Shown piece by piece: positions 48,268 to 50,253 of a DNA stretch of 57,741 nt. Source of the DNA: Planctomycetota bacterium (GTDB taxonomy: Bacteria > Planctomycetota > Planctomycetia > Pirellulales > UBA1268); NCBI GenBank assembly GCA_018970605.1, contig JAGWWA010000001.1, positions 1-57,741 of the forward strand. The letters are read 5' to 3'. The notes under the pieces were generated by a model. The model searched no databases, was not told the origin of the DNA, and saw only the letters and a list, made by a program, of their open reading frames with translations. Position 1 is the first letter of the stretch. Each line of letters begins with the position of its first letter. The translations under genes were made by a program, and so were the position numbers.

Positions 48268-49299
48268 TCAGGCGATCTGATCGCGGGTGACGCAGTGGAT
48301 GGCGCCGCGACCGCGGATCAGGGAGGTGCAGTCGAAAGGCTCGATCGTGCGGCCGGGAAAGCTCGCCTCGAGCGTCCGCAGGGCCGGCTCGTCGGTCGGC
48401 CCGCCGAACACCGGCACCGCCACGAAGCCATTGCCGACGAGGAAGTTGAGGTGACTTGCCGGGAGCTGTGTGCCCTCGAACGCAAACCGGGCGGGGATGT
48501 CGATCGGGATCACGTCGAGACGCCGGCCACGGGCATCGGACGCCGCACGGAGGATGGCAAGGTTGCGATCGAGCGACTCATGGTTGGGATCGAGCCGATC
48601 GGGCTGGCGGGCGGCGACCACGCGGCCCGGGGCCACGAACCTCGCAAGCTGGTCGATGTGGCCGTCGGTGTCGTCGCCGGCGAGATCGCCGCCGACCCAG
48701 ATCACGCGATCGATCGCAAGATGCCGTTTCAGGGTGTTCTCCATCGCGTCGCGGTCGAGGCTCGGATTCCGCTTCGGATCGACCACGCACCGCTCGTTGG
48801 CCATGAGCGTGCCGTCGCCGTCGGTTTCGATCGCGCCCCCTTCGAGCACGATGTGGGGCTCGATCGACGTGAGACTCTCGTGCTTCGCGATCGCCCGCGA
48901 CACGCCCGCATCGGCATCCCAGGGCGGATACTTGCCACCCCAGGCGTTCCATTCCCAGCAGACGGCGCGCGGCCGCTGGCCACTGGAGGCGTCGCGCGGC
49001 ACGAGAAACACCGGGCCGGTGTCGCGGATCCATGAGTCGCTCGTGGGGATCTCGACGAACGCCACATTCGCCGCGTCGGCGAGGAACGACCGCGGCGCCG
49101 CAAGCACGTCGCGCGAGCCGATGATCTGGACCGGCTCGTAGCGTGCGATCAGCCGTGCCAGCCGTTCATAGACCGGCGGGATCGCCTCGTAGGGCCCGAG
49201 GAACGTGGCCCGGCGGTGCGGCCACGCGATCCACGTGGCGGCGTGCGGCTCCCACTCGGCCGGCAGCCTGAAAATCGGGGACGGGAGCTGATTTCCCAT
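48268..49299 (-). CDS. aguA: Agmatine deiminase AguA
   Basis: A roughly 343-residue enzyme converting agmatine to N-carbamoylputrescine. LPAEWEPHAATWIAWPHRR opens the family, DSWIRDTGPVFLV and WNAWGGKYPPWDAD are conserved substrate segments, VLEGGAIETDGDGTLMANE and GDDTDGHIDQLARF follow, and the C-terminal GRGAIHCVTRDQI carries the catalytic Cys. Its candidate ATG 49299 sits in the loop of a 27-bp perfect hairpin; an upstream alternative at 49344 would begin within that hairpin's outer flank. Second gene of the aguB-aguA operon. Confidence 0.92.
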   Translation of the reverse strand: MGNQLPSPIFRLPAEWEPHAATWIAWPHRRATFLGPYEAIPPVYERLARLIARYEPVQIIGSRDVLAAPRSFLADAANVAFVEIPTSDSWIRDTGPVFLVPRDASSGQRPRAVCWEWNAWGGKYPPWDADAGVSRAIAKHESLTSIEPHIVLEGGAIETDGDGTLMANERCVVDPKRNPSLDRDAMENTLKRHLAIDRVIWVGGDLAGDDTDGHIDQLARFVAPGRVVAARQPDRLDPNHESLDRNLAILRAASDARGRRLDVIPIDIPARFAFEGTQLPASHLNFLVGNGFVAVPVFGGPTDEPALRTLEASFPGRTIEPFDCTSLIRGRGAIHCVTRDQIA

Positions 49300-49328
49300 T
49301 AGGAAATCAGCTCCCGTCCCCGATTTTC
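49270..49328. repeat. 27-bp perfect inverted repeat with 5-nt loop over aguA start
   Basis: Arms 49270-49296 and 49302-49328 are exact complements around the loop CATTA (TAATG in the aguA mRNA). No mismatches were found on direct comparison. It could be an inserted REP or MITE-type hairpin that now frames the start codon. In mRNA the ATG would be exposed at the loop but the ribosome site would be in the stem. Confidence 0.9.
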
Positions 49329-49344
49329 CTTTCTGGGTTTTCAT

Positions 49345-50253
49345 CTACCCGCCCCACCGGCCGAGGAGCCCGCCGAAGGCGTCGATTCGCCGGTCGCGAA
49401 AGAAGGGCCATCGCGTCCGCGACCACTCGATGCGGGAGAGGTCACAGTCCACCACCGCCGTGAGCGGCTCGTCGTGCGAGGCCTTCATGAGGCAGTCGCC
49501 GTTGGGGGCGTAGACCACGCTCGCGCCCCAGAAGCGGAGCGGGCCTTCGCAGCCGGTACGGTTCACGGCCACCACGAACACGCCGTTGGCGATCGCATGG
49601 CTCCTGAGCATCGTGTCCCACGACTCATACTGTTCGCGGTGGAGCGGGTCCTCGCCGTCGAGCCAGCCGATCGCCGTGGGATAGAAGATCGCCTGGGCGC
49701 CGGCCATCGCAGTGAGCCGGGCGGCCTCGGGATACCACTGGTCCCAGCAGACCAGCGGCCCCACGGCAAGCCGGCTCGTGGCCACGCTCATGAAGCCGGT
49801 GTCGCCCGGCGCGAAGTAAAACTTCTCGTAGTAGTGCGGGTCGTCGGGGATGTGCATCTTGCGATACACGCCCGCCGTCGAACCGTCGGCATCGAAGATC
49901 ACGGCGGTGTTGTGGAACAGGCCGGCGGAGCGGCGCTCGAACACGCTGCCCACGAGCACCACGCCGTGCTCCTTCGCGGCGGCCGCGAGCCGTTCGGTGA
50001 GCGGCCCGGGCACCGTCTCGGCCTCGGCGAACTTCCCGTGGTCCTCCGCCTGACAGGGGTACTCGCCGGCGAACAGTTCCTGGAGACAGACGACGTGGGC
50101 CCCCTGCTTCGCCGCAGCGGCGATGCCGGTGATCGCCTGGGCGATGTTGGCCTCGCGGTCGGGTGTGCAGGCCGACTGCACGAGGCCGATGCGGACGGTG
50201 GTGGGTGGCTGGAGGCGATCGCCCCGCGGCATGATCTGCGATGACGTGTTCAT
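49345..50253 (-). CDS. aguB: N-carbamoylputrescine amidase AguB
   Basis: A 302-residue nitrilase-superfamily enzyme converting N-carbamoylputrescine to putrescine, CO2 and ammonia. The catalytic triad is visible: CLQELFAGEY (Glu), YRKMHIPDDPHYYEKFYF (Lys) and VCWDQWYPEAAR (Cys). ATG 50253 (MNTSSQIM) has AGGATGGGG upstream; the track's 103-codon extension is an intergenic shadow. It is directly upstream of aguA, forming a complete agmatine-to-putrescine pathway. Confidence 0.93.
   Translation of the reverse strand: MNTSSQIMPRGDRLQPPTTVRIGLVQSACTPDREANIAQAITGIAAAAKQGAHVVCLQELFAGEYPCQAEDHGKFAEAETVPGPLTERLAAAAKEHGVVLVGSVFERRSAGLFHNTAVIFDADGSTAGVYRKMHIPDDPHYYEKFYFAPGDTGFMSVATSRLAVGPLVCWDQWYPEAARLTAMAGAQAIFYPTAIGWLDGEDPLHREQYESWDTMLRSHAIANGVFVVAVNRTGCEGPLRFWGASVVYAPNGDCLMKASHDEPLTAVVDCDLSRIEWSRTRWPFFRDRRIDAFGGLLGRWGG

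Follow-up and report, generated by a model that had tools for sequence, protein, structure and literature searches.

The locus described here raises the question of whether a long hairpin at the aguB-aguA junction controls the translation of AguA or is an inserted repetitive element; the original prediction had left both readings standing. A repeat search of the window, the whole stretch of 57,741 nucleotides that was analysed, revealed a perfect inverted repeat with arms at 49270-49296 and 49302-49328, each 27 nt long and 100% complementary to the other, with 5 nt between them that read TAATG on the aguA (minus) strand. No other inverted repeat in the 57.7-kb window came close, the others found being at most 84% complementary. 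The 59-nt hairpin RNA folded at -53.8 kcal/mol, compared with -16.7 (sd 3.1) in dinucleotide shuffles (z = -12), and its 120-nt context folded at -82.6 (z = -9). The predicted hairpin, perfect over 27 bp and with a TAATG loop, was thus confirmed as real and far beyond chance. Each arm consisted of an outer GAAAATC, a core GGGGACGGGAGC and an inner TGATTTCC. The features of the locus are as follows.

48268 to 49344, minus strand: aguA open reading frame, agmatine deiminase family, 358 codons from the ATG at 49344, with the element in frame.
49345 to 50253, minus strand: aguB open reading frame, N-carbamoylputrescine amidase family, stop codon TAG at 49347-49345.
49342 to 49344, minus strand: proposed native aguA start ATG, abutting the aguB stop, at a position conserved in relatives.
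49297 to 49299, minus strand: alternative aguA start, the ATG in the hairpin loop, picked by a simple codon-usage gene caller.
49270 to 49328, minus strand: palindromic element (27-bp inverted repeat, TAATG loop), from the repeat search and RNA fold.
49310 to 49321, minus strand: core GGGGACGGGAGC in the first arm, in the aguA orientation.
49277 to 49288, plus strand: core GGGGACGGGAGC, second arm, inverted.

The products of aguA and aguB both scored below the strict equivalog cut-offs of NCBIfam.

The original prediction had proposed looking for the same sequence elsewhere in the genome. We searched the genome of the organism (a 2.86-Mb assembly of 164 contigs, 75.8% complete) using the 62-nt element and its exact core as queries, a search that may miss diverged copies, and found that the core recurs as doublets both there and in relatives. 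In particular, the exact 12-mer GGGGACGGGAGC was present eight times, and all eight copies were paired into four inverted doublets on four different contigs, while a reversed control gave two matches. Within the family, 9 of 72 genomes also contained matching doublets, the control giving no match, and further doublets were found in 90 stretches of species-representative genomes, mainly the Acidobacteria MAGs nzgw77 and Ww172 and several Planctomycetes. Short-spacer matches in Streptomyces, Microbacterium and others resembled unrelated hairpins. When the bases outside the core were compared from arm to arm in 77 doublets, the match was 5.18 within the same element versus 1.18 between elements for the outer bases and 6.19 versus 1.62 for the inner bases (0/2000 shuffles). 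Since the flanks matched far better within than between elements, the long hairpin is the unit of the family. A self-palindrome inside each arm, which is a trait of true REPs, gave only a weak signal within each phylum.

Some of the doublets showed further peculiarities. In three acidobacterial doublets (L027:7326-7403, L036:6634-6704 and L086:1303-1379), the palindrome continued into the flanks, e.g., gcccgtgataag..cttatcacgggc, as if insertion had favoured or copied a palindromic target. Additionally, a record titled Candidatus Kuenenia stuttgartiensis (AE-24oct19-66; L026, L031, L064) carried the same doublets as G051, a genome assigned to the same genus as the window; the title of the record therefore looks wrong.

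The recurrence of the doublets also bears on whether the perfect palindrome could be a fold-back of one arm created during assembly. In favour of such an artefact, one arm mirrors the other exactly and the sequence comes from a metagenome assembly of 164 contigs; however, near-perfect doublets with the same core were present on four contigs here and in assemblies made independently in other studies, the loop differed every time, and the reading frame remained open. We therefore consider an artefact extremely improbable.

The doublets were found mostly between genes. According to a simple, self-written and unvalidated codon-usage gene caller, 44 of the 58 acidobacterial doublets were intergenic in sequence that was 86% coding, often only a few bases (within 20 nt) from gene 3' ends, and 11 lay inside predicted genes, including frames that matched trigger factor, TsaD, LigD and a MiaB-like protein. 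REP sequences have known effects on mRNA ends. Such effects have been discussed previously (PMC3733652). The hairpin might accordingly be mainly an RNA signal, either an intrinsic terminator or an mRNA-stability element that sets the aguB:aguA ratio, and a terminator-like site was indeed flagged at the hairpin on the plus strand. This site is antisense to aguBA, and the sense strand has no T tract after the stem; moreover, Rfam gave no match, and the aguB-aguA junctions of relatives work without a hairpin. We regard this explanation as very unlikely, and an intrinsic terminator of aguB was rejected because the terminator-like site occurs on the opposite strand only. An aguA-specific riboregulator, the first option of the original prediction, was rejected on the dispersal of the repeat, the hairpin-free junctions of relatives and the lack of an Rfam match; the element probably has no regulatory role. 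The same prediction had named two observations that would speak against it, namely an AguA start elsewhere and a widespread repeat unrelated to starts. The second of these was observed, the repeat being mostly intergenic and unrelated to starts.

The same core was also found beside genes of a transposase family. Y1_Tnp (PF01797) genes with the inverted core on both sides were present in L137 (Acidobacteria nzgw77), L138 (Planctomycetia, Lac Pavin) and L140 (Planctomycetaceae, Loclat), with one mismatch in the core on one side in L140. In L143 (nzgw81), a related Y1_Tnp gene was flanked by a correspondingly changed core, GGGGTCGGGAGT. The L138 protein contained the HUH motif (HWH), and its best NCBIfam match was the REP-associated tyrosine transposase (RAYT), below the cut-off. 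The L140 protein was 89% identical to the L138 protein, with a stop near its C-terminus, and the acidobacterial L137 protein was approximately 54% identical to that of L140. RAYT remnants adjoined cores in L190, L191 and L197, and other RAYTs of the family were flanked by different inverted repeats, e.g., AAAAAGGTGCCAGCCACC. A sequence search for a relative of the RAYT with a solved structure found none. In two Acidobacteria MAGs (L137 and L143), the core-flanked RAYT gene directly adjoined the start of a purN-like gene.

The insertion of a REP-type element, the second option of the original prediction, was supported by the dispersed doublets and by the core flanking RAYT genes. The cognate transposase gene was not found in the organism's own assembly, which is 76% complete. 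The single Y1_Tnp match of this genome (L009:600-1420, contig C85) was rejected as the cognate transposase, as it had a different flanking repeat and no core nearby; its flanks read CCCTCGCT(C/T)CCGCTCGGGGCTTGCTG, and it is apparently part of another transposase-repeat pair. A phage origin of the element was also considered and gave no match.

Among the four doublets of the organism, one lay between converging genes (C61), and three were in frame within genes, namely aguA, nuoE (C76) and uvrA (C15). The nuoE copy was a long form (L008:4970-5070) inserted in frame after codon 2. In nearly all congeners, nuoE begins with ATG ATC (one has ATG ATT, and G041 differs), in many cases overlapping the nuoD stop. 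The nuoE gene of this organism reads ATG ATC followed by the element, and the relatives represent the empty site; the native start is kept there, and the element is read as coding sequence. In uvrA, the element was in frame in the gene interior in this genome and its nearest relative, G035, and was absent from G045, G046 and G053. The uvrA and nuoE copies shared a homologous 68-nt spacer (49/68 identical; alignment score 79 versus a shuffle maximum of 41), as copies of a single mobile sequence would. The presence of the element at nuoE and uvrA in some genomes and its absence there in others suggest that the element has been mobile and that it transposed in the past in this lineage. A constant reading frame across the three genes was considered and rejected; the right arm was read in one common frame in all three and the left arm in 2 of 3, which is too few to be meaningful.

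The in-frame position at aguA was then compared with that of the relatives. The aguA reading frame opens directly after the aguB stop, and from the ATG at 49344 it reads MKTQKGKSGTGADFLMGNQLPSPIF-RLPAEWEPH, with the whole hairpin inside the open reading frame and no stop codon within the element. The alignment to the solved relative 1xkn begins at residue 22 of this frame, counted from 49344. The loop ATG (49299-49297) noted in the original prediction was real and in the aguA frame, but the in-frame ATG at 49344-49342, which lies upstream of it, had been missed. The aguA gene of 15 of 18 congeners begins 0-5 nt past the aguB stop, and that of two others 28 nt past it; the corresponding gap was 0 for the ATG at 49344 and 45 for the loop ATG. 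Because a gap of 0 matches the starts of relatives, the native start at 49344 was most likely retained. The base of the hairpin then lies at +17, counted from this ATG, so that the hairpin begins 16 nt beyond it. Position +17 is approximately the edge of the footprint of an initiating ribosome. If translation starts at 49344, the ribosome-binding region falls at the 3' end of aguB, outside the stem in which the original prediction had placed it. The proposed displacement of the original start was likewise unsupported, since 49344 corresponds to the start position of relatives and the nuoE copy keeps its native ATG.

The same mobile element could alternatively have taken over initiation, with AguA starting at the loop ATG at 49299 and the stem throttling translation unless ribosomes coming from aguB open it. 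The stem holds a GGGAG approximately 11 nt upstream of this in-frame ATG, the gene caller chose it, and it gives 10 residues before RLPAEW, within the 4-18 observed in relatives, whereas the 25 residues from 49344 exceed that range and count against the upstream start. It has also been cautioned that REPs assigned to N-termini may in many cases lie outside genes (PMC3733652). A parallel case was found in the sister species G044 (L126), where a different palindrome dimer, of the AAAAAGGGGGATGTTCCCTTTTT type, occupies the same aguB-aguA junction. This palindrome family had 18 sites (≤3 mismatches) in G044 and none in the organism's own genome or in controls. An in-frame TAA excludes upstream starts in the G044 aguA, and the sole ATG lies in the hairpin loop, which would yield MFPFSY-RLPAEW; thus, in G044, the aguA start is likely supplied from the loop of the palindrome. 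In the organism studied here, however, a stem of -53.8 kcal/mol encloses the loop ATG, an in-frame ATG 45 nt upstream abuts the aguB stop as in relatives, and nuoE keeps its native upstream start. Initiation from the loop therefore appears possible but unlikely. With either start, the coding sequence must include at least the second arm, as no start codon other than the loop ATG itself occurs between that ATG and RLPAEW.

Taken together, we consider it probable that the hairpin is a non-autonomous, RAYT-spread palindrome inserted in frame past the aguA ATG at 49344 and translated as an N-terminal extension. The element, an inverted doublet of GGGGACGGGAGC of the REPIN/TIR type, would have been mobilized by its cognate Y1 transposase of the RAYT family, entering aguA after about five codons and leaving the stop-start junction of aguB and aguA intact. 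The translated element would give AguA the N-terminus MKTQK-GKSGTGADFLMGNQLPSPIF-RLPAEW. Elongating ribosomes could unwind the hairpin, and any effect on the level of AguA would be incidental. No close relative lacking the element at aguA was found, the nearest AguA being 84% identical, and the missing canonical GT[AG]G foot and the lack of a cognate transposase in this assembly count against insertion by this route.

Families of REPs and TIRs associated with Y1 transposases, together with their dimers, have been described (PMC3733652; PMC6006769). The element was filed as a new member of the broad class of RAYT-associated inverted-repeat elements, and neither narrower class, canonical REPs or TIRYT repeats, was assigned. 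The broad class is characterized by dispersed multicopy inverted doublets (8/8 cores in this genome; 9/72 family genomes), by the same repeat flanking a Y1 (RAYT-type) gene, which was found in related genomes and not in the organism's own assembly, and by an intergenic preference (44/58 acidobacterial doublets with the simple gene caller). The foot GT[AG]G of canonical REPs (GTAG class) was absent, the outer ends in the listed doublets being GAAAATC or similar; the element is therefore not a canonical REP. In CGTC-class REPs, each repeat has an unpaired CGTC at one end, and a dedicated transposase is lacking; here, CGTC occurred only within the paired core (GCTCCCGTCCCC), and repeat-flanked transposase genes exist.

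The nearest known system was that of the terminal-inverted-repeat-associated tyrosine transposases (TIRYT/TIRtrons; PMC3733652), probably TnpAREP subclass 2.1 (PMC6006769). As in this system, which is known in Acidobacteria, G-rich inverted repeats flank the Y1 gene and are dispersed as dimers. The published TIRYT motif GGGGWSAS agrees with GGGGACGG at 7 of 8 positions and differs at one. In contrast to this system, the organism's own assembly lacks the cognate gene. The L138 and L137 proteins extend approximately 100 residues beyond the catalytic domain; in Pfam searches up to E = 5, they gave only Y1_Tnp and none of the HTH-type C-terminal domains of subclass 2.1 (Bac_DnaA_C, HTH_23, HTH_28). 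The element also resembles REPINs (PMC3116915), in which two inverted short repeats form one long hairpin that is dispersed and mostly intergenic, with a repeat-flanked RAYT here found in related genomes, but it differs in lacking the GTAG/GTGG foot, in numbering only four doublets per genome here and in the weak palindromes within its arms. Rickettsia palindromic elements and intragenic REPs (PMC3733652) are likewise in-frame palindromes of approximately 20-35 residues, some N-terminal and some in uvrA; their sequences are unrelated, the present repeat also flanks Y1 genes, and the phyla (Planctomycetota, Acidobacteria) differ. A literature search for the exact core returned only an unrelated sheep microRNA paper.

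In-gene repeats of this general kind are already known, including in-frame intragenic REPs, some in the uvrA of other phyla, and N-terminal copies of uncertain coding status (PMC3733652). The aguA hairpin is thus a real, well-explained feature that is mostly ordinary in kind, and the more interesting by-product is the UvrA loop. At this loop, located between residues that align to M. tuberculosis UvrA 256 and 263, palindromes exceeding every shuffle were found in 6 of 19 congeneric genomes and in 0 of 10 genomes of another genus. The inserts were in frame and belonged to at least four different repeat families (uvrA loci concerned: L199 in the organism itself, L200, L201, L202, L204, L210 and L219). 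A doubtful but broader idea is that, in this planctomycete genus, palindromes of several unrelated RAYT-type families repeatedly enter the same protein sites in frame, such as the UvrA loop and the aguB-aguA junction. They would then be a recurring source of novel coding peptides, and of start codons as well, with target preference or selection possibly at work at these sites.

What appeared to be a translation-control hairpin is better read as a traceable mobile-element insertion, which is a warning that start codons or regulation may be miscalled where such hairpins occur. Congeners in which the nuoE and uvrA sites are either filled or empty provide a natural series for studying how transposase-associated palindromes turn protein-coding, and the UvrA loop, with its several repeat families, makes a direct test of target preference possible.
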